Shown: positions 28,429 to 37,747 of the stretch, in pieces
Numbering within the stretch: position 1 is the first letter of the stretch
Layout: the number at the start of each line of letters is the position of its first letter
Notes under the pieces: generated by a model
The model's database searches: none
The model's input: only the letters and a program-made list of their open reading frames with translations
Told to the model about the DNA's origin: nothing
Program-made: the position numbers and the translations under genes
From: Bacteroidota bacterium
Lineage (GTDB): Bacteria > Bacteroidota > Bacteroidia > Chitinophagales > Chitinophagaceae
Assembly (NCBI GenBank): GCA_026391455.1
Contig: JAPLEH010000061.1
Location: 1 to 64,000 of the forward strand
Reading direction: 5' to 3'
DNA length: 64,000 nt

Positions 28429-29088
28429 ATGGCATTAACCAAAGAACAAATCGCACAGCGCATCGCAAAAGAACTGCGGGACGGGTATTATGTAAACCTG
28501 GGCATTGGTATACCTACGCTGGTAGCCAATTATATTCCGGCGGGCATCAATGTGGTATTGCAGAGTGAGAATGGATTATTGGGTATGGGGCCTTTTCCCG
28601 AAGAGGGGCAGGAAGATCCGGATCTGATCAATGCGGGTAAGCAGACCATCACCACGGTGCCGGGCTCCGTGTTCTTCGATTCGGCACTCAGCTTTGGGAT
28701 GATACGGGCTGGCAAAGTGGACCTCACGGTACTCGGTGCGATGGAAGTAAGTGACCAGGGCGATATTGCTAATTGGAAAATACCTGGAAAGATGGTGAAA
28801 GGAATGGGAGGAGCGATGGACCTGGTGGCCAGTGCCAAAAATATTATCGTGGCCATGATGCACAGTAATCCCAAAGGGGAATCGAAATTATTACCGGCTT
28901 GTACCTTACCGCTTACGGGCGTACGCTGTGTAAAGAAGATCGTATCCGACCTCGCCGTGCTCGATGTAACACCCGAAGGATTTAAACTACTCGAACGCGC
29001 TCCCGGAGTAACGGTGGAAGAAATAAAAGCAAAGACAGCAGGGAAATTGATAATCGAAGGGGAGATTCCGGAAATGGTTTTTAATTAG
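28429..29088 (+). CDS. scoB: 3-oxoacid CoA-transferase subunit B
   Basis: This 219-residue beta subunit has the catalytic glutamate E47 in the signature SENGLLGMGP, and GIGIPTLVANYIP upstream. E47 forms the glutamyl-CoA thioester intermediate. It works as a heterotetramer with ScoA. It is followed by an AT-rich tandem repeat block and no obvious terminator. Confidence 0.93.
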   Translation: MALTKEQIAQRIAKELRDGYYVNLGIGIPTLVANYIPAGINVVLQSENGLLGMGPFPEEGQEDPDLINAGKQTITTVPGSVFFDSALSFGMIRAGKVDLTVLGAMEVSDQGDIANWKIPGKMVKGMGGAMDLVASAKNIIVAMMHSNPKGESKLLPACTLPLTGVRCVKKIVSDLAVLDVTPEGFKLLERAPGVTVEEIKAKTAGKLIIEGEIPEMVFN

Positions 29089-29100
29089 AAAATATGAGAA

Positions 29101-29395
29101 TTAGAAAATGTGAAAATGAAATACGTCCAAGGCTGTTAATTCTCACATTTCCACATTTATTCATTAGAAAATATGAAAATGAAATACGCATAGGCTGTTA
29201 ATTCTCACATTCTCACATCTACATATTTCCAAATTTATTCGTTAGAAAAGTGAAAATGAAATACGCACAGCCTGTTAATTCTCACATTTCCACATCATCA
29301 CATTTCCAAATTTATTCGTTAGAAAAAGTGAAAATGAAATGCGCATAGGCTGTTAATTCTCACATTTCCACATCATCACATTTCCATATTTCCTA
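29101..29395. repeat. Four imperfect tandem repeats of 63-78 bp
   Basis: Units begin TTAGAAAA at 29101, 29164, 29242 and 29319. Each contains GTGAAAATGAAAT(A/G)CG..., then CTGTTAATTCTCACATT and an A/T-rich end. AAATGTG and CACATTT parts can pair within a unit. The TTAATTCTCACATTTCCACAT core also occurs at about 28370-28390 between scoA and scoB, so the element is dispersed. It fills the space between scoB and the convergent response-regulator gene. Confidence 0.75.
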
Positions 29396-30043
29396 ATCAA
29401 TCAGATTATTCTTCACCGCAAAGAACACCAAACCTGCCGTGTTCTTACTGCCGAAGCGTTCCATCAGACGGTCTTTGATGGCTTCTACTGTGCGGGGACT
29501 GATTTCCATTTTTTTAGCGATTTCTACCGCGGTGAACTCCATGCAAATAAAGCGGAGTACATCTTTTTCTTTATCGGTGAGGGTGATCTCGCTGTTGAGG
29601 GAGGGTACTACACGCTGGCGGGAGTGTGATTTTTTCAGCAGGATGCGGTTTACAAAATTATTGAGGTAGTAACCTTTTTCAAACACTTCCATAATGGCGC
29701 GCTTGATCTCATTGGGCTCAGCATTTTTCAACATATAGCCATTGGCACCGTTTTCCATGAGGTGGTATACAAAGCGTTCGTCTTCGTACATACTCAGTAC
29801 GAGTACTTTGATATGTGGAAATTGTTTGCTGATGGCTTTGGTGGCTTCTATACCGTCTTTGCCGGGCATACGCAGGTCCATCAGCACTACGTCGGGTTGT
29901 GCGTCGGGTATACCGTTGAGCAGTTCATCTCCGTTTTCGGCTTCGAGTACAAACTTGAGGTTGGTAAAAGGCCTCAGGGAGAGGATCACGCCTTTCCGGA
30001 AGATTTTATGATCGTCTGCTATTGCTACCTTAATGATTCCCAT
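29393..30043 (-). CDS. NarL/FixJ-type response regulator (cluster 1)
   Basis: This 216-residue protein has a receiver domain with acidic D10-D11, phosphoacceptor D56 (VLMDLRMPGKDG) and Lys in YMLKNAEP. A LuxR-type helix-turn-helix spans about 150-210 (LTDKEKDVLRFICMEFTAVEIAKKM...SPRTVEAIKDRL). Phosphorylation should drive DNA binding. The partner is probably the histidine kinase encoded 80 bases upstream. Its own -7 box directly precedes the gene. Confidence 0.93.
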   Translation of the reverse strand: MGIIKVAIADDHKIFRKGVILSLRPFTNLKFVLEAENGDELLNGIPDAQPDVVLMDLRMPGKDGIEATKAISKQFPHIKVLVLSMYEDERFVYHLMENGANGYMLKNAEPNEIKRAIMEVFEKGYYLNNFVNRILLKKSHSRQRVVPSLNSEITLTDKEKDVLRFICMEFTAVEIAKKMEISPRTVEAIKDRLMERFGSKNTAGLVFFAVKNNLID

Positions 30044-30059
30044 AGTTTCAGATATTCGG

Positions 30060-30067
30060 CAAAGTTA
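30060..30067 (-). promoter_or_regulatory. TAnnTTTG -7 element before the cluster 1 regulator
   Basis: The minus strand reads TAACTTTG 17 bases before the regulator start, inside the 80-base gap after the kinase gene. It allows regulator expression apart from the kinase. Confidence 0.5.
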
Positions 30068-30123
30068 ATGTTTACGATAGTTTGGTATGGGAGGGTTTAT
30101 GGAATCTGGTTAATTAGTATGGT

Positions 30124-30948
30124 TCAGATCGGGTCGTCGGTGGGCATTTCGATCGTTACTTTATAATAGGTCTGTGAAATATCTTTTTCAAAACTGATAT
30201 TACCCTGTACGAGCCGCATCCGGCTGGTGATATTTTTCAGGCCCAGTCCTACATTGCTCTTGTTGAGCTTTTCGAAATCGGCCTGTACGATACCGCGTCC
30301 GTCGTGATGGATGCGAAGATAGAATTTACCGGAATAAATATTCTGGGTAAGGTGAATAAAGCTCGAATTGCTGTGTTTCAGAATATTATTGATAAGCTCC
30401 TGCACCACGCGGAATACGATCAGTTCTTTTTCTTCTTTGAGGCGGGTTTTGTATTCGTGAAAGCGGCTGCTTGCGTTGATGCTGCCGGAGCCGGATATTT
30501 TCTGGAAGAGATCGTTCACGGCTGATTCCAACCCGAAATTTTTGAGGGTGGGCGGCATCAGGTTGTGGCTGATATTACGTACCAGTTGGATGGTATCATC
30601 CACGATCTGGCGGGCCTGAAAAATAGACTGGAGCTGGATGGCTTTATCGTGATTGACCAGGTTTTCGTTGAGATAGAGCCGTACGGTGGCGAGCAGGGGG
30701 CCCGCATCATCGTGGAGGTCGGCGGCCAGGCGCTGGCGTTCTTCTTCCTGCAGTTTGATGGAGGCATTGAGCAATATCTTTTGCTGGTCCTGTTCCATCT
30801 GCTGAATCTTTTTATGAAAGCGCATTACCCGGCGCTGGTGCATAATGATAAAGATGATAAGGGCCACCGTAAGCACGACCATACCCACGGTGCCTAAGAA
30901 AAGCACAAAGGATACTCCAGGTTTGTTGACGACTTGTAAAAAGAACAT
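30124..30948 (-). CDS. Sensor-less HisKA_3 histidine kinase (cluster 1)
   Basis: This 274-residue kinase has one N-terminal membrane helix (about 12-36), almost nothing outside the membrane, and a coiled linker. A HisKA_3 dimerisation domain with H79 (LAADLHDDAGPLL) follows. The HATPase domain has N box ELINNILKHS, G1 HDGRGI and VGLGLKNI. There is no PAS, GAF or periplasmic sensor domain. It should phosphorylate the downstream regulator. Input probably comes through the membrane or from the adjacent polytopic protein, which is inference from gene order. Confidence 0.92.
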   Translation of the reverse strand: MFFLQVVNKPGVSFVLFLGTVGMVVLTVALIIFIIMHQRRVMRFHKKIQQMEQDQQKILLNASIKLQEEERQRLAADLHDDAGPLLATVRLYLNENLVNHDKAIQLQSIFQARQIVDDTIQLVRNISHNLMPPTLKNFGLESAVNDLFQKISGSGSINASSRFHEYKTRLKEEKELIVFRVVQELINNILKHSNSSFIHLTQNIYSGKFYLRIHHDGRGIVQADFEKLNKSNVGLGLKNITSRMRLVQGNISFEKDISQTYYKVTIEMPTDDPI

Positions 30949-30974
30949 GGTGACAATTTAGTAGAAAATTTCTA

Positions 30975-31649
30975 TTATTCCATATCCAGAAATGGGATGT
31001 TTTCAAGTTTTCGTTCAGATTCATTTTCTTTTTGATAGGCAACTAGAATAAATGCCAAAGCAAAAAATAATGTTTTGATACTGTCTGCGATATAATTAAA
31101 AAACCAATATTTCTGAAATTCTTCAGATGAGAGTGTGCTACCTAAAATATTCAGGAAAAAAGACCCGCCAAGATAAAAAAGTAAACCAACTGCAATCCAG
31201 AAACAATGATTAGTGTAGATAAACATTCCTTTTGTGGAATTAATACTTTCTATAAAAAAGAAAATAATGAAAAGAAATATTAAGATGGACTCAATTCCTA
31301 TTGGGATTGAATCTAATCTTTTCTTTTCGATGAATAAAATATAGCAAAATTGAAAGATTATAAAGAGAGATGAGAAAATGAGTATTGCTTTTTTATATCT
31401 TTTGGTTTCAAGATTAAGGTAAAAAAGCGATGCAAAAAAAAGATACTCTACGGTTGTATAAAACGGTTGATATGCGATACTAATTATTGACTTTGGAATG
31501 TCGTAATAAAAAAACAATAGTAAAAAAAATACTATTCCATAAGTGGTTAGAATCCAATTGTCTCTTTTTCTTGACTTAACAATTAAAAAAAGAAAGGGGA
31601 GGAGAAGGTAAAGGTATGTGTTAATATGCTCAAAAAGCTTTTCTAACAT
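30975..31649 (-). CDS. Polytopic membrane protein, putative sensor partner (cluster 1)
   Basis: This 224-residue protein has about seven hydrophobic helices and short loops. It is a divergent relative of the three proteins at 33991-36214: similar length and helix layout, with a TN-containing start to a late helix (YTNHCFWIAVGLLFYLGG) and an aromatic-rich last helix ending in a charged tail. No known domain is recognised. It lies 26 bases upstream of a sensor-less kinase on the same strand. The composition is very AT-rich. Function unknown; a signal-receiving role is inferred from context. Confidence 0.75.
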   Translation of the reverse strand: MLEKLFEHINTYLYLLLPFLFLIVKSRKRDNWILTTYGIVFFLLLFFYYDIPKSIISIAYQPFYTTVEYLFFASLFYLNLETKRYKKAILIFSSLFIIFQFCYILFIEKKRLDSIPIGIESILIFLFIIFFFIESINSTKGMFIYTNHCFWIAVGLLFYLGGSFFLNILGSTLSSEEFQKYWFFNYIADSIKTLFFALAFILVAYQKENESERKLENIPFLDME

Positions 31650-31662
31650 TTTGGATTTTGTC

Positions 31663-31670
31663 CAAAAGTA
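31663..31670 (-). promoter_or_regulatory. TAnnTTTG -7 element of signalling cluster 1
   Basis: TACTTTTG on the minus strand ends 14 bases before the start of the membrane protein gene, so it probably drives membrane protein-kinase-regulator. Confidence 0.5.
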
Positions 31671-31924
31671 GAAAAGCTTTTTGACTTTTTTAAATTTTTG
31701 ATTCTTTTGTTAAATTTCTGACCAAGTCAGAATTGAATCATTTTCTAACACAACAATGCGTGCAATCTTTTTCATAACAGTAACATTTTTAAGCCTTTCA
31801 AATTCGAATCTGAGGGGTAAAAATTGCGAATGATGGGGTTTTTAACAACCGGCACATTCAGTAAAAACTAAGTAGTAATCGGTTTAAATAATTGTAAATG
31901 AGCTTATTAATTAGAAAATTAATA

Positions 31925-32002
31925 GTAAACTTACCAGCCAAATTCGAGTAAATCTCCCAAGTATTATTGGTAAATTTACGTAAGTAAAGATAGTAAACTT
32001 AC
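31925..32002. promoter_or_regulatory. Three GTAAnnTTAC palindromes, operator-like
   Basis: GTAAACTTAC (31925-31934), GTAAATTTAC (31970-31979) and GTAAACTTAC (31993-32002) lie within 78 bases. The first and third are embedded in the same 14-mer ATAGTAAACTTACC. They are about 275-350 bases upstream of cluster 1 and could be sites for a NarL-type dimer. Binding is inference. Confidence 0.5.
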
Positions 32003-32107
32003 CGGGAAAATTTCCGGTTGTTAACAGGTGTGGATAAACTTTTTTAGGCTCGTCTAAGCGTAGGTTCGGAGCAGCCAGTTTGTAAGAAAAGACTGCCGGT
32101 TGGTGTT

Positions 32108-32158
32108 GCAACAACCATTTTTTATGGTGGGTGGGCTTTAAGGTTGTTGCCGTATTTT
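32108..32158 (+). terminator. Possible plus-strand terminator in gene-free region
   Basis: GCAACAACC (32108-32116) pairs with GGTTGTTGC (32142-32150), enclosing a smaller ACCA/TGGT hairpin, and is followed by TATTTTTT. No plus-strand protein gene precedes it, so it would end an unseen noncoding transcript from 31700-32100, or be fortuitous. Confidence 0.3.
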
Positions 32159-32228
32159 TTAGTAAGAACTAAAGGAAAAGGAAGTTGACTGACATTGGAT
32201 TTCGCTATGGCAATTCAAAGGATCTGGA

Positions 32229-32400
32229 ATTATATTCAGGACGGTTTCAACTGGGACATTGGATGATACAGGGGGCTCCATCTTTTGTCAATCAACTTAT
32301 AACAAAAGTATATGCACACCCGGGTGTGTACAAGAGCAATATCACGGCATTTTAACACATCGGTATTTACCGTTCGGCTCGTAGGTTTCCGATACGTAGA
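32229..32400 (+). repeat. Noncoding element copy B (homologous to 58141-58305)
   Basis: It shares GGACATTGGATGA, TCAATCAACTT, GTATAT, ACAAGAG and CGTAnnTTTCCG in the same order with the region upstream of the regulator at 58453. Centred at 32321-32322 is the 14-bp perfect palindrome CACACCCGGGTGTG. A second palindrome, CGGTATTTACCG (near-perfect), is at 32361-32372. No gene follows it on the plus strand. The rest of 31671-32568 shows no coding potential. Confidence 0.65.
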
Positions 32401-32568
32401 TGTTTTTTTACGGTGATACGTATAGGGGTTTTACTTTTTAGGGTGGAAATGGCCAAAATCAAGGCTTTTGCATAATCCATGTTGTGGAAAAAGCCAGGTA
32501 TTGGGTGGTGGGTTTGCTGCCGTTTTAGGGAGTCCACCTCATTCTATTTATATCGGACTGTTTCGTGT

Positions 32569-33228
32569 TTATAAAATAGCGATCCCATGCCGCATGGCCA
32601 CCATTGCCAGGCCTACACGGCTTTTTACATCCAGCTTTACAAAGAGCTGATCGCGCAGGTTGTCTACCGAGCGGGGGTTGAGCCCCATTTGCTGGGCGAT
32701 CTCTTTATAAGTAAGGTCGGAGCAGGCCAGCTTCAGAAATTCCAGTTCCTGGTCGGTGAGCATGGCTTTTTGCAGGCCGGTGGCACCATCGGGCCCGCTA
32801 CGGAAGAGGTTTACCAGTTTGCCTGTGGTATGGTTGGAATAATAATAGCCGGATTGCACCACCGATTGAATCGCAAACTTCAGCTCATCTGGGTGGATAT
32901 CTTTTTTCAAAAATCCCTTTACCCCGGCCTGCAGCAGGCGTATCAGCGACAGTTCGGAATCGTACATGGTCAGCATGAGCACGTTTACCCCTGGATGGTG
33001 CTGCTGCAGCCAATTGGCCGCTTCATAACCATCCATATCGGGCATATTGAGGTCCAGGATCACCACATCGGGTATATGGCCTGCGTCAATATGGGCTACC
33101 AGTTCGCGGCCGGTGCCGCATTGGTGTATGACTTCGCAGTTGCCAAATGTATTGATCAGGGAAGCGAGCGCATTGCGCAGGAGTACATGATCGTCTGCCA
33201 ATGCTATTTTAATTGACGGTGTTTGCAT
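32569..33228 (-). CDS. NarL/FixJ-type response regulator (cluster 2)
   Basis: The start at 33228 (MQTPSIKIALADDH) gives 219 residues; the longer reading to 33315 lies inside the kinase gene. The receiver domain has D12-D13, phosphoacceptor D59 (VILDLNMPDMDG) and the conserved Lys (FLKKDIHP). The LuxR helix-turn-helix is at about 150-215 (LTDQELEFLKLACSDLTYKEIAQQM, NPRSVDNLRDQL). The gene overlaps the kinase end by 20 bases, indicating coupled translation and direct partnership. Confidence 0.93.
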   Translation of the reverse strand: MQTPSIKIALADDHVLLRNALASLINTFGNCEVIHQCGTGRELVAHIDAGHIPDVVILDLNMPDMDGYEAANWLQQHHPGVNVLMLTMYDSELSLIRLLQAGVKGFLKKDIHPDELKFAIQSVVQSGYYYSNHTTGKLVNLFRSGPDGATGLQKAMLTDQELEFLKLACSDLTYKEIAQQMGLNPRSVDNLRDQLFVKLDVKSRVGLAMVAMRHGIAIL

Positions 33229-34015
33229 GGTGTATAATGGGAATGGTAAAGATAAGCGTAGTGCCCTGTGCTGGTGCTGTTTGTATTTGTAATGTGCCGT
33301 TGAGAATACGCACACGGGTTTCCATATTTTTTAATCCGGCCCGGGTGCTTTGCTTTGCCATCCCGGTATCGAAGCCCCGCCCGTTGTCCTGGATGCTGAT
33401 CACCAGTTCCTGCGGATGGTAATGCATCAACAACCGGGCATGGGTGGCACCGGCATGTTTGATGATATTATTGAATGATTCCTGAATAATGCGGAAGATG
33501 ATCAGCTCCTGCTGGTTGTCCATATATACAGGAGTGCCCTCCACCTCAAATGCAAGTGTGAACAAACCGGTTTGCCGGATGCGCTGTATTTCTTCTTCCA
33601 GGGCTTTCAGCAGGCCGTGCTGTATGATCACATCGGCATTAAGCCCTTTGGAGATATCGCTCAGTTCGGTGATGGATTTGGTGAGCAGTTCGATGGAGGT
33701 ATGTACTTTTTCTGCGGCTGCATCCGGATCTTTCGGATCCAGGGTATGCAGGTGCAGCTTGGCCAGGGTAAGGGAGAGGGTGATATTATCATGTATTTCG
33801 CGGGAGATATTTTGAAAGGTTTGTTCCTGGATTTCGAGTTGGGTACTGAGGAGTATCCGTTCGTTATCCAGCTTTACTTTTTCCAGTTGTTGCTCAAATG
33901 TTTGTTGTTTTCGCCGGTACAGGAAAAGTATAAACACGATAAAAGCCACCATACCAAGGATGACGGCTGAAATAACTACAAGAAAAATAATTATATCGTA
34001 AGTGGTTTTTTGCAT
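33209..34015 (-). CDS. Sensor-less HisKA_3 histidine kinase (cluster 2)
   Basis: This 268-residue kinase has one N-terminal membrane helix (about 8-33), a coiled linker, and the HisKA_3 motif with H75 (ISREIHDNITLSLTL). The HATPase domain has IIQESFNNIIKHA, DNGRGF and AGLKNMETRV. No sensor domain is present. Its first 25 bases overlap the end of the membrane protein gene upstream and its end overlaps the regulator start, so membrane protein, kinase and regulator are translationally linked. Confidence 0.93.
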   Translation of the reverse strand: MQKTTYDIIIFLVVISAVILGMVAFIVFILFLYRRKQQTFEQQLEKVKLDNERILLSTQLEIQEQTFQNISREIHDNITLSLTLAKLHLHTLDPKDPDAAAEKVHTSIELLTKSITELSDISKGLNADVIIQHGLLKALEEEIQRIRQTGLFTLAFEVEGTPVYMDNQQELIIFRIIQESFNNIIKHAGATHARLLMHYHPQELVISIQDNGRGFDTGMAKQSTRAGLKNMETRVRILNGTLQIQTAPAQGTTLIFTIPIIHHANTVN

Positions 34016-34701
34016 AGAAAAGCTCTGCCAATACAGGCGAAGTTAATAGCAAGTGGTAAGTAAAAGAAAAGTGTGCCTATTATTGCGTAGTGTTTTTCCG
34101 AGTTCACTAACAATCCTAAAAGATTTACCGGAATTGAAATACTTGAGTAAAAGAATAAGCCAGCTACTAACCAAAATGATGGCTTTTCGAACAGGTTATC
34201 AAATGGACGTTCTTTAAGTAATTTAATAAAGTAAATAAAACAAAAAGGTATAAGCATGATCAGTTCAAGGGTGTAAATCAATCTGGCCATGTAAACACTT
34301 CGGGCTGAAATGAAGCTGAATTTTGTTGCAAGAAAAAATATTGTAACAACTAAATATAAAATGGAGTTTATAAAAATCATTTTTTTGATCACTAGCCCTT
34401 TTAGAATTCTACTAAAATAATAATTGTATACAAGAAGCTCGAATGCTGAGATGATGCAATTTGTGTAAAGTAAAAATTGATTATAACGAAAGGTTTTAAA
34501 TCCACTAATCGATAAGATCATTAGATCTGAAGTGTAGATTAATATATCAAGTAAAACAAACAGAGTGAAAAGTAATTCGATTCTGGTTTTTCTTTTTTTC
34601 CCCAGTATAATGAGTAGTGCAAAAATCTCTATAAGGAACATTAAAGGCGGACTATAATAAAAATTATGCCATTCTTCTAGAATCTTATTTATGTCGAACA
34701 T
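33991..34701 (-). CDS. Polytopic membrane protein, sensor candidate C (cluster 2)
   Basis: This 236-residue protein has about seven membrane helices. It shares with the two upstream genes an N-terminal FYYSPPLMFLIEIFAL block, a YTN...ELL.Y.YYF segment near residue 85, PFCFIYF near 160, KPSFWLVAG near 180 and a final helix rich in Asn/Phe. These repeated motifs define a paralogue family that I cannot match to a named domain. It overlaps the kinase gene by 25 bases, the strongest hint that it feeds the kinase. AT-rich. Confidence 0.8.
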   Translation of the reverse strand: MFDINKILEEWHNFYYSPPLMFLIEIFALLIILGKKRKTRIELLFTLFVLLDILIYTSDLMILSISGFKTFRYNQFLLYTNCIISAFELLVYNYYFSRILKGLVIKKMIFINSILYLVVTIFFLATKFSFISARSVYMARLIYTLELIMLIPFCFIYFIKLLKERPFDNLFEKPSFWLVAGLFFYSSISIPVNLLGLLVNSEKHYAIIGTLFFYLPLAINFACIGRAFLCKKPLTI

Positions 34702-34750
34702 GTGAGTTTTTTTGGATGCTTTTTAATTGCTGACGAATCATGTGTATTCT

Positions 34751-35461
34751 TTATTCAAAAAGTCGCTTTTTTAAACTCATGGCCTTGCTGATAAAAAGGA
34801 AATTAATAGTAAGCGGTAAAAAATAAAGAACTGCTCCGAATAAAAAATAATAATAATTGTATTGAATAATAAGCAGTGAAGCAAGAAGATAAAAGCAAAT
34901 GGAGCTTGTCGAACAAATTAATATACCTGTGCTCAGCCAGAACGAAGGCCTTTCAGGCAAATTTACCTTTGATGGGCTGTTAATCAGTTTTTTATAATAA
35001 AGAAGGCAAAATGGAATGATGAAAACATATTCTATTGAATTTAGCAAGAATGTCATATAGTAATAATTATTTGAGATGAATTTCAGTTTAGTAATAAGAA
35101 ATACTGTGCAAAATGTTAGGTATAAAAAATTGACTAAAACTAATGATTTGCTGATCTTTCTTTCGTTGAAAACTTTTGAGAAAAAATATGAGTATGTGCC
35201 CAATTCTAAAATAGAAATTAAAGTATTCGTTTTGTTCACAAAGTCAATTAGTTTTTTTTGAGGTAAATGATAGAAGATCCAATAATCGAACAGGAAAATG
35301 ATAATGTCAAATATGAGCAATGATATGAATAGTTTGACTATTAAATCTTTTTGTTTATACAAAATACTAATGATCAATGCAACTATTTCAGTAATAAACA
35401 TCAATAAAGGTGCATAGTAAAATACTTCAAATCTTTTCAATATATCTAAGGTATTATTCAT
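34751..35461 (-). CDS. Polytopic membrane protein, sensor candidate B (cluster 2)
   Basis: This 236-residue paralogue of its neighbours has FYYAPLLMFITEIVAL at the N-terminus, NKTN...ELGTYSYFF in the middle, IPFCLLYYKKL, RPSFWLSTG and INFLFISKAMSLKK at the end. About seven helices with short loops. It lies 49 bases upstream of protein C on the same strand. No signal peptide beyond the first helix. Function unknown. Confidence 0.78.
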   Translation of the reverse strand: MNNTLDILKRFEVFYYAPLLMFITEIVALIISILYKQKDLIVKLFISLLIFDIIIFLFDYWIFYHLPQKKLIDFVNKTNTLISILELGTYSYFFSKVFNERKISKSLVLVNFLYLTFCTVFLITKLKFISNNYYYMTFLLNSIEYVFIIPFCLLYYKKLINSPSKVNLPERPSFWLSTGILICSTSSICFYLLASLLIIQYNYYYFLFGAVLYFLPLTINFLFISKAMSLKKRLFE

Positions 35462-35488
35462 TGCAGGTTATTGTCATTGGTTAGGATT

Positions 35489-36214
35489 CTATATTTCTAA
35501 GGAAGTAAACTTTCTTTTTAACAAAAAAGCTTTTGATATAAATATAAAGTTTGCGATTATTGGAACAAAGTAAAAAGCGGTCAGAAATATTCTGAGGAAT
35601 GAAGAATGATTGGTTCTGATGTGGTCAGATAGCAAGTACCCTGGTATGGAGAAGATAGCGAATAGGAAAATTCCACAAACCAGCCAGAATGAAGGGGAAT
35701 TTTGGATCTGCTCTGCGCGTTTGCTCATGAGAATATTTCGAAAATAGAAAAGGCAAAATGGGATCAGAAAAAGGAATTTAATTGTTTCGAATAAAAATGT
35801 AAAATACCGTAATCTTTCAGATAAGAAACTAAAACTGCCGATAATATAGGTAATTGAGAAAAACCCAAATAATAAACTCAGCCGTAAAATAGTGCGCCGG
35901 GTTTTCACATCAGTGAAAAGGTGGTAAAAGAAATAATAGTATGAGAAAAGCTCCAATATCGCAATTGAGGCATTTGTATAAAGTAGAAAATTTGAATAAA
36001 AGGTATCGGGTATGCTGGTAATTGCCCGCACGCAAAGGTCTGAAACCAGTATCGAGAAATCTATAATAATATAGATAAGGAATACTTTCTGCGTTTTTTC
36101 TTTTTGTAGGCAGGTAATCGCAATAATTAAAGTAACCAATTCAGCAAAAAACATAAGCATACTTACGTAGTAAGTAACCTGAAATTCGTACCATATGCGG
36201 TTAAAGTCAAACAT
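35489..36214 (-). CDS. Polytopic membrane protein, sensor candidate A (cluster 2)
   Basis: The start at 36214 (MFDFNRIWYEFQ) is chosen because it aligns with MFDINKILEEW of protein C; an upstream TTG adds 12 residues. The 241-residue protein keeps the family motifs TYYVSMLMFFAELVTL, LLYTNASIAILELFSYYYFF, IPFCLFYF, SPSFWLVCG and ANFIFISKAFLLKR. It is the first gene of a five-gene minus-strand run (A, B, C, kinase, regulator). A 38-bp repeat lies 54 bases upstream. Confidence 0.78.
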   Translation of the reverse strand: MFDFNRIWYEFQVTYYVSMLMFFAELVTLIIAITCLQKEKTQKVFLIYIIIDFSILVSDLCVRAITSIPDTFYSNFLLYTNASIAILELFSYYYFFYHLFTDVKTRRTILRLSLLFGFFSITYIIGSFSFLSERLRYFTFLFETIKFLFLIPFCLFYFRNILMSKRAEQIQNSPSFWLVCGIFLFAIFSIPGYLLSDHIRTNHSSFLRIFLTAFYFVPIIANFIFISKAFLLKRKFTSLEI

Positions 36215-36267
36215 TTTTGGATGCCCCCGAAAGTACACTATGAATGTCAATGTGCAGACTTTAAGGC

Positions 36268-36305
36268 TGCCGAAAAAAACGTTTTAAAATCGTTTTTTTC
36301 CCATT
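36268..36305. repeat. 38-bp repeat with hairpin, copy 1
   Basis: This sequence is identical over 38 bases to 39345-39382. It contains GAAAAAAACG and CGTTTTTTTC arms (10 bp) around a 9-base loop that includes TTTTAAAA. It lies upstream of the cluster 2 operon. The adjoining 36306-36553 shows only a -7 box. It could act as a terminator, protein site or recombination site. Confidence 0.85.
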
Positions 36306-36454
36306 CCCTTCCCCCATTACTACAGCATTTTTGTTATTATTAGTTAAAGTGGTAGATGATTTAAGTGGGGAATAGTGGTATAAAGCCCAGAAAATAACCA
36401 AAAAGTACATTTTGCATTTGATGTTTTTCACATGGTGAGGCAACTTTCACAGTT

Positions 36455-36462
36455 TAGTTTTG
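36455..36462 (+). promoter_or_regulatory. TAnnTTTG -7 element of the secreted-protein island
   Basis: TAGTTTTG lies 92 bases before the ATG at 36554, with no clear -33 box. Confidence 0.35.
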
Positions 36463-36553
36463 ACCCGTCAACCGACAGCCAGCCGGCAGCCGGTTCGGGA
36501 GATACGGGAAATGCTGAAAACCGGTGAAAGAGAGTAGGCGTGAAAATTATTGT

Positions 36554-37150
36554 ATGAAAAAAATAGTTATAATTTTAGTTGCAGGGTTATTTATCACAGT
36601 TAATTCAAAAGCCCAATTAGCTGATAAAATGAAACCATTTACATTTAGTGGTTTTGGAATCACTGTGACAGGGACTTATTCAGAAGGATTTTTGAATCAA
36701 ACAGTAGTAAATGGCACCAGCATTCTTTGGGGACTTATTTCATGGGGTGGAAGCACGCAAACGACATGTAGTCCTGGTAGTGCCGTATGTCGTATCGAAC
36801 AGATATTTTCGGTTCAGGTAAATCGTACTATAACTAGCCCCGAAAATGGCCTGAAGAGTTTTGATATGGGGGCAAATAATGACCTTTACAACCCAGTGGT
36901 AATTGGAGAGAAAGACGGTAACCTTACTTTTGCGGTGGATTTGACAAAAGTAAGTGCATCAAGTCGCAGCCGCTACGAATCGGATGAATGGGTATTGGAA
37001 CGTTCCTTTGTTCTTACCCCGGATGTAGTAAAATCGCTGGGGCTATATACAGGAAAGGAAGAAATGGGTTTTATTATTCCAGCGGGGCGTTACCCCTTAT
37101 CTAAAGATGGGAATATTGCATTCTGGACATTTAATAAGCCAATTCAATAA
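36554..37150 (+). CDS. Secreted protein of unknown function
   Basis: The start at 36554 gives 198 residues with a signal peptide (MKKIVIILVAGLFITVNSKA); a GTG at 36524 adds ten charged residues in front and is rejected. The mature part is beta-rich, with two cysteines spaced as in TTCSPGSAVCRIEQ. It ends in GFIIPAGRYPLSKDGNIAFWTF, reminiscent of a small beta-barrel. I do not recognise a family. It is followed immediately by a terminator, so it is transcribed alone, first in the island between the 38-bp repeats. Confidence 0.7.
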   Translation: MKKIVIILVAGLFITVNSKAQLADKMKPFTFSGFGITVTGTYSEGFLNQTVVNGTSILWGLISWGGSTQTTCSPGSAVCRIEQIFSVQVNRTITSPENGLKSFDMGANNDLYNPVVIGEKDGNLTFAVDLTKVSASSRSRYESDEWVLERSFVLTPDVVKSLGLYTGKEEMGFIIPAGRYPLSKDGNIAFWTFNKPIQ

Positions 37151-37156
37151 TCATTA

Positions 37157-37198
37157 AGGAGCATTTGATACTGCTTCAAATGCTCCTCCTTTTATTTT
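37157..37198 (+). terminator. Terminator overlapping the next gene's leader
   Basis: A 12-bp stem (37157-37168 with 37176-37187) is followed by CCTTTTATTTTA. The start codon of the lipoprotein gene follows at once at 37199, so read-through past this hairpin may set expression of that gene. Confidence 0.65.
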
Positions 37199-37747
37199 AT
37201 GCGAACATTAGTGCTTTTCTTCTGGGTGATAGTTTTAGGGTTTACAGCATGTAAACAAAAGGATAGAAAATTATCTGCTTCTTATTCAGAAATCAGTGGA
37301 TTTCTGAAACAAAGTGGTATTACTGATCCAGAACTGATTTTTTTCTATGTTGATAAGCCCAGAATGCCACTTCCCAATGTAACATGCTTTGATCGTTTTG
37401 GTGTTCAATTAAGAACACCTCCTCAGTGTTTTGGGTATATTAAGGAGTATATCAGTTTTCTCTGTGACAGCATTATGCCCAGAGCTTTACCCAATCAGGC
37501 GTTGATACAATATCTGGATAGTGTGAAAATAATGAGTGCTTACGATTTGATTGTTGATGCCAGTCAAGTGGGAGAGTATGACTATTTTCTGTTTATTGAT
37601 TTTCTGGCAATTCCATCAGAAGAGCTTCAAAAGACGTTACGGGAGTCTGTCGATACAGTTAATAAATCAAAGAAAAAAATACGACTTTTTCTGGTACATG
37701 CATTATCTGAAAAAAATGCAGTTTATTTTAAAAATACACCTCAGTAA
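37199..37747 (+). CDS. Lipoprotein of unknown function
   Basis: This 182-residue protein has a lipoprotein signal (VLGFTACKQK, Cys18). The rest is mixed alpha/beta with VTCFDRFGVQLRTPPQCFGY in the middle and a basic SKKKIRLFLVHAL near the end. No family recognised. The ATG directly follows the terminator tail. One base separates its stop from the next small membrane protein gene, suggesting coupled translation. Confidence 0.68.
   Translation: MRTLVLFFWVIVLGFTACKQKDRKLSASYSEISGFLKQSGITDPELIFFYVDKPRMPLPNVTCFDRFGVQLRTPPQCFGYIKEYISFLCDSIMPRALPNQALIQYLDSVKIMSAYDLIVDASQVGEYDYFLFIDFLAIPSEELQKTLRESVDTVNKSKKKIRLFLVHALSEKNAVYFKNTPQ

Follow-up and report, generated by a model that had tools for sequence, protein, structure and literature searches.

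The first 64,000 nucleotides (nt) of contig JAPLEH010000061.1 (forward strand, positions 1 to 64,000; assembly GCA_026391455.1, a Bacteroidota bacterium of the Chitinophagaceae), hereafter the window, hold two signalling gene clusters in which short histidine kinases, HK1 and HK2, are encoded next to polytopic membrane proteins, here named A to D. The eight open reading frames (ORFs) all lie on the minus strand, cluster 2 in the order A-B-C-HK2-RR2 and cluster 1 in the order D-HK1-RR1, RR1 and RR2 being response regulators (Table 1). C overlaps HK2 by 25 nt and HK2 overlaps RR2 by 20 nt, while the intergenic gaps measure 27 nt (A-B), 49 nt (B-C), 26 nt (D-HK1), 80 nt (HK1-RR1) and 919 nt (RR2-D). 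A preliminary description of the window, made from its sequence alone, had read cluster 2 as three membrane proteins, a kinase and a regulator with these same two overlaps, and cluster 1 as a single divergent membrane protein with a kinase and a regulator; the ORF coordinates agree with both readings, as does the identity of only 27% between D and C in a four-row alignment. The start of A is taken at an ATG, the ORF list beginning this gene at a TTG (36250), and the ATG of RR2 at 33228 was read off the sequence, the ORF list beginning that gene at a GTG (33315).

Table 1. Genes of the two clusters in the window and examples of a small protein encoded upstream of family genes in other loci (aa, amino acids)
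Feature	Coordinates	Strand	Basis
Membrane protein A, 241 aa, seven-helix family, first tandem copy	35489..36214	-	ORF; 34% identity to C; own-genome profile match
Membrane protein B, 236 aa, second tandem copy	34751..35461	-	ORF; 37% identity to C
Membrane protein C, 236 aa, third tandem copy	33991..34701	-	ORF; AlphaFold2 model
HK2, histidine kinase, 268 aa, one transmembrane helix, HisKA_3 + HATPase_c, no sensor domain	33209..34015	-	Pfam; helix count
RR2, response regulator, receiver + LuxR-type DNA-binding domain	32569..33228	-	Pfam on longer ORF 32569-33315
Membrane protein D, 224 aa, divergent member of the seven-helix family, with a conserved subfamily of its own	30975..31649	-	ORF; AlphaFold2; profile homology to A/B/C
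HK1, histidine kinase, 274 aa, one transmembrane helix, HisKA_3 + HATPase_c, G1-box Asp to His	30124..30948	-	Pfam; helix count
RR1, response regulator, receiver + LuxR-type DNA-binding domain	29393..30043	-	Pfam
Small upstream proteins, examples	L013 2193-2669; L014 1010-1453; L024 5779-6480; L071 1015-1323		Directly upstream of seven-helix gene

The kinases and regulators form two-component systems of the NarL/HisKA_3 type. Above Pfam cut-offs HK1 and HK2 show HisKA_3 and HATPase_c and nothing else, which together with helix prediction bears out the earlier picture of kinases with one membrane helix and no sensor domain, and both regulators show Response_reg and GerE, a receiver with a LuxR-type helix-turn-helix. 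The phospho-accepting histidine is kept in 114 of 115 aligned kinases. The G1 box (DxGxG) begins with Asp in 68 of the 115 and with His in 45 (HK1 and 44 others), a substitution that may change nucleotide binding or the balance of kinase and phosphatase activity. Elsewhere in the same genome a kinase-like protein of 225 aa with no predicted helix (L020 8019-8696, G000:C31) adjoins a cluster of seven-helix protein, kinase and regulator; read by eye, it apparently has Tyr at the phospho-accepting position (VREVYENIGQ), and a regulator gene of its own comes after it.

The four membrane proteins can be assigned to one family, because a profile of A, B and C matches a profile of 34 D-type proteins with a probability of 98.4% (E 4e-15). 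Motifs that the preliminary description had listed as common to them stand in outline, with A reading TYY in place of FYY and B reading KTN in place of YTN. Over 119 aligned rows, one of which duplicates C, the most conserved positions (C numbering) are F176 (110 rows), G181 (95), W177 (94) and E88 (82). That the proteins might belong to a known enzyme or transporter family had been named as the finding that would overturn a sensor role, and no such family, nor any sensor family, claims the window proteins: Pfam and NCBIfam have no model that matches A to D at its curated cut-off, a PADLOC search of the four gave no meaningful match (best E 0.078), and a 30-member family profile compared by sequence with solved structures gave one match that is not meaningful (E 0.54). 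Enzymes or transporters that the two-component system controls or that feed it, such as Pyr4-like membrane terpene cyclases, are an improbable identity for the family; similar size and the score of one of 30 members of the set A4 against PF25129 (Pyr4-TMTC, 5e-6, that member not being among the ten rescanned) speak for it, and against it PF25129 matches neither A to D nor anything else in the own genome, and the family profile compared with six Bacteroidia TMTC proteins reaches a probability of 0.1%, the same as a reversed control, on which ground membership among the terpene cyclases was judged unlikely. Separately, a Pyr4-TMTC gene was noted in two Bacteroidia genomes (L231 1414-2082 and L232 905-1576) with 9 nt between it and a following gene, whose product looks by eye like a 7TMR-DISM receptor.

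Seven helices are predicted for these proteins, by AlphaFold2 model for C and D, the two for which models were made, and elsewhere by hydropathy, which gives crude counts. The model of C has a predicted local distance difference test score (pLDDT) of 93.6 and a predicted template modelling score (pTM) of 0.90, with helices at residues 17-33, 40-64, 70-99, 103-126, 135-163, 174-198 and 202-229; that of D has a pLDDT of 90.1 and a pTM of 0.86. Charge bias gives a topology with the N-terminus outside and the C-terminus inside in 117 of the 119 rows. For both models the top structural matches by Foldseek are G-protein-coupled receptors (GPCRs) and rhodopsins, and since adiponectin receptor 2 (6ks1) is also among the matches, the likeness extends to seven-helix bundles beyond these two groups. 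A to D are predicted, on these models, to be helix bundles like those of GPCRs and rhodopsins, with the N-terminus outside and the C-terminus inside.

Such a fold raises the question of whether D-type members are retinal-binding sensory rhodopsins. D-type proteins keep a lysine, K192, inside the seventh helix (at least 90% of 34 rows), at about the position of the retinal lysine as far as alignment ranges tell, and their predicted fold matches rhodopsins. A lysine in the middle of helix seven occurs in 55 of the 119 family rows, many of them D-type, but A, B and C have none there; no rhodopsin family matches in Pfam among the window proteins and 30 relatives; and the retinal synthase PF15461 finds no match in the own genome or in six of seven D-type relatives, the seventh (G014) having one. 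A retinal photoreceptor is on this evidence very unlikely.

Evidence on function also comes from the pairing of family genes with kinases. The own genome contains 22 kinases with PF07730, 14 in frames of 506-1176 aa and eight in frames of 262-363 aa. One of the eight, a soluble receiver-kinase (C40), was left out of the count. Each of the seven others, all short single-helix HisKA_3 kinases and two of them in the window, is directly preceded by a family gene and followed by a regulator like RR1 or RR2. Of the family proteins at the five kinases outside the window, the A-D profile detected three, while the remaining two (C49, C31) were first noticed from their position.

The same arrangement recurs in other genomes. 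A family profile (A3) run on 28 genomes, the own one and 27 relatives, gave 32 matches, nine in the own genome and 23 in 11 others, and each of these 23 directly precedes a single-helix kinase (in L038 the family frame holds a stop and the kinase is cut by the contig end). More widely, at E 1e-5 or better, the class sample shows the family in 89 of 296 genomes (the own included) and 58 of 164 genera; a sample of the phylum shows it in 60 of 296 genomes, seven of the 60 lying outside the class. A kinase-like ORF follows in 29 of 30 loci from the class search (one of them own), counting as kinases L070, with no helix found, L060, a weak match of 351 aa, and L068, where the kinase lies in two frames; the thirtieth locus ends at a contig edge after a second family copy. 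A scan of genome contigs with A, B and C returned 127 candidate stretches and no relative, and one with D-type proteins returned 42 loci in named records (Terrimonas, Segetibacter, Flavisolibacter, and metagenome-assembled genomes of Chitinophagaceae and other Bacteroidota; cultured species among them are Flavisolibacter ginsengisoli, Terrimonas pollutisoli and Terrimonas ginsenosidimutans), with an HK1-type kinase adjoining in 41 and the last ending at a contig edge. Cluster 2 genes lie upstream of the D-type locus, within the stretch fetched, in 14 of these 42, and the order of the two clusters is therefore old.

Taken together, the loci fetched by family sequence hold 130 distinct family genes, where named records and other relatives share some contigs and duplicates were removed only by identity in the last 150 residues. 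Directly downstream stands a kinase in 118 cases, with exactly one predicted helix in 115 of them, another family gene in five and neither in seven. Adding loci taken by place or by kinase gives 125 kinases, eight family genes and seven with neither (n = 140), and in this larger set the gap from family gene to kinase has a median of -17 nt, the two genes overlapping in 74 of the 125 pairs. The seven genes with neither include two records of C from the window, truncated at the locus edge (L009 and L027), and two that run off the end (L128 and L071); in L165 the next gene is a single-helix kinase of a different type, with a PAS-like region read by eye, and L120 and L122 are genuine cases without a kinase. 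The neighbour count proposed in the preliminary description thus came out in favour of linkage to HisKA_3 kinases, and homologues standing away from kinases, which would have told against a sensor role, are few.

Linkage also holds from the side of the kinases. Among the matches listed for HK2, 48 kinases from genomes other than the own were picked by hand for an open frame of 240-365 aa. In 42 of them a family gene stands immediately upstream; 31 kinases were assigned by eye against family coordinates from the class search and 17 by reading the loci, 11 of these 17 having the family gene. The six others comprise two at a contig edge (L195 and L218), one with two helices (L222) and three without a family gene (L207, L220 and L224). 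Among short kinases of the relatives that had no A3 match beside them, three proved to have a divergent family gene (L129, L130 and L131), and L132 has none.

Family proteins and kinases have also diverged in a correlated way. Tree distances in 115 pairs correlate with a Spearman coefficient of 0.56, against a highest value of 0.10 in 500 shuffles, and the seven own-genome pairs give 0.56 as well, a value reached in 2.1% of permutations. The membrane proteins are the more divergent partners, with a mean identity of 0.19 vs 0.32 for the kinases. Within the family A, B and C group together in a single clade (support 0.80), so that their triplication looks recent and lineage-specific. This clade, together with the single copy that precedes HK2 in the cluster 2 of named relatives, would suit an account in which A, B and C are recent spare copies with only one of them functional. 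That account is an unlikely one: none of the three frames is disrupted, A and B retain 34-37% identity to C, 50 invariant columns are common to the three, and tandem sets occur elsewhere too, with three copies in L138 and L181 (the latter triple preceding a weak kinase match of 412 aa) and two in L139, L140 and L142.

A fourth gene often accompanies the arrangement. For 85 of 145 distinct family genes, an ORF on the same strand ends at most 250 nt upstream; 72 of these ORFs encode neither a family protein nor a kinase or regulator, and an iterated hidden Markov model search places 51 of the 72 (51 of the 145 family genes overall) in one family of small proteins. Its members have about 100-330 aa, a core around W[FY]S...G[IL]R.Y.G.Y and often a C-terminal CPP.C tail. 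The model started from 11 seeds picked by eye and retained their signal regions, which may have pulled in some of the members. Nine members or relatives scanned with Pfam gave nothing at cut-off, and neither window cluster has such a gene directly upstream. By a crude rule an export signal or anchor is present in only 19 of the 51 (L005 being cut by the locus edge and L030 maybe missed). In L139 the pair of small gene and receptor gene is present twice. In genome G067 (L229 3465-5015) the small-protein domain (E 2e-10) is fused to the N-terminus of a 516-aa family protein, and the gene is followed by a kinase and a regulator; a possible second copy of the domain before the first does not score. 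As the fused protein begins like a signal peptide, the small domain would lie outside in this case, and its fusion to the receptor N-terminus fits an N-terminus on the outside.

Bacterial receptors with seven helices have been described before; a 2003 paper reportedly defined families of them. The 7TMR-DISM receptors (PF07695), according to PMC6107284, feed histidine kinases and other signalling modules through helices fused to the module. A to D resemble them as predicted seven-helix proteins that would serve a histidine kinase and differ in being separate proteins of 224-241 aa. Membership was rejected, hhalign giving 0.9% in a comparison with 15 PF07695 proteins of the own genome and its relatives; one of the 30 A4 members matches PF07695 at E 0.0096 and C does not. 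PMC10653868 describes BtsS as having seven helices and an outside N-terminus that drive a LytS-type kinase within the same protein. This 5TMR-LYT type has in common with our family the seven helices and outside N-terminus predicted here and the action on a kinase proposed here, but there the kinase is fused, of the LytS type and paired with a LytTR regulator, whereas here the putative receptor is separate and the kinases are HisKA_3; 5TMR-LYT has no Pfam match in the window proteins or 30 relatives. HisKA_7TM (PF16927) is likewise a seven-helix input region for kinases, one that sits in frames of 591-1039 aa, and membership was rejected here too (hhalign 0.3-0.4%, reversed control 0.3%).

Other systems have separate proteins. 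Sensory rhodopsin is a stand-alone seven-helix receptor that acts on a separate membrane transducer, Htr, leading to a histidine kinase. It would share with A to D the stand-alone receptor and the separate membrane partner, besides a similar predicted fold, and differs in that retinal is not expected here and the partner is the kinase itself, with one helix. In LiaF-LiaS-LiaR a membrane protein, a kinase and a regulator are likewise encoded together, and LiaF is given as a negative regulator of LiaRS in PMC3543457. The difference is that the membrane proteins here have seven helices and match no family at cut-off; a LiaF model is not among the library matches of the window proteins or 30 relatives, whether the libraries hold one being unchecked. 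From the liaF-liaS-liaR resemblance it could be argued that the seven-helix proteins play an accessory part in regulation (inhibiting, stabilising or chaperoning the kinase, as LiaF for LiaS) and that the kinase helix itself senses the membrane, as a single-helix kinase could. We consider this unlikely, though the strongest of the alternatives, because an input role better suits a family that diverges faster than its kinases, stands in tandem copies before one kinase and has a receptor-like predicted fold. The best reading is a receptor subunit encoded apart from its kinase, which would work like sensory rhodopsin with its transducer or LiaF with LiaS, and which by the tests made appears to be a member of neither.

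We therefore propose that A, B, C and D are probably stand-alone seven-helix receptor subunits that act in the membrane on the single-helix kinase encoded downstream. The proposal joins the gene structure, a single family, linkage conserved in both directions, the topology from charge bias, the predicted fold and the correlated trees. A, B and C would associate in the membrane with HK2, and D with HK1; a ligand or a state of the membrane would change the receptor, this change would shift the membrane helix of the kinase, and the shift would alter the kinase's autophosphorylation or its phosphatase activity; the phosphorylation state of the LuxR-type regulator, and transcription with it, would follow. 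Physical contact, the ligand or signal, the direction of control, distinct inputs through A, B and C, and the target genes are elements that we infer. The earlier suggestion that the membrane proteins are modular sensors plugging into the kinases gains in this way from the two-way linkage and the receptor-like predicted fold, while the signal binding, kinase contact and separate inputs that it supposes are putative.

Several points weigh against the proposal. Contact between receptor and kinase, and a ligand, are themselves putative. The correlation of the trees is also expected from inheritance as one operon without contact. The best Foldseek E-values against PDB are only 0.028 (C) and 0.093 (D), and helix bundles can score high in such comparisons through their common arrangement. 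The single-helix kinases L207, L220, L224 and L132 noted above have no upstream family gene, and the family genes of L120 and L122 and the first copy in L139 (a locus fetched by place) have no kinase directly downstream. Finally, no fusion of receptor and kinase appears among the matches listed in the searches of relatives, class and phylum (longest frame 304 aa), where obligate partners would be expected to fuse occasionally.

Regarding the surroundings of the clusters, two plus-strand genes divergent from cluster 2, one encoding an exported-looking protein (36524-37150) and the other a protein resembling a lipoprotein (37199-37747), are possible targets of RR2. No RNA element in 29000-37500 reaches Rfam cut-offs; promoter-like sites in 29200-36600 show no excess (23 vs 22.2 in shuffles), and terminator-like sites number 11 vs 6.0 in shuffles (standard deviation 2.9). 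The genes of A to D have 27-34% G+C and the adjoining kinase and regulator genes 46-52%, and in 100 of 125 pairs the receptor gene has a lower third-position G+C than the kinase gene.

A literature search in which subscription journals were thinly covered found no paper that we recognised as treating this seven-helix family or gene arrangement. Being recurrent in many related bacteria and seemingly nameless, the pairing of receptor and kinase looks like an unrecognised receptor system. A wider and more tentative possibility is that the Bacteroidota hold a large unnamed class of stand-alone GPCR-like receptors that dock on one-helix kinases, often with a small ligand or ectodomain protein, and that tandem sets such as A, B and C form mixed complexes integrating several signals; if true, this would be a bacterial counterpart of the separation of receptor and effector in GPCR signalling. 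Sensor-free kinases are common in these genomes, and the family offers a candidate receptor encoded next door. If borne out, it would add a separate seven-helix receptor family to bacterial signalling, opening the questions of how a receptor with a GPCR-like predicted fold might act on a histidine kinase by way of one helix and of which signals these mostly environmental bacteria sense with it.

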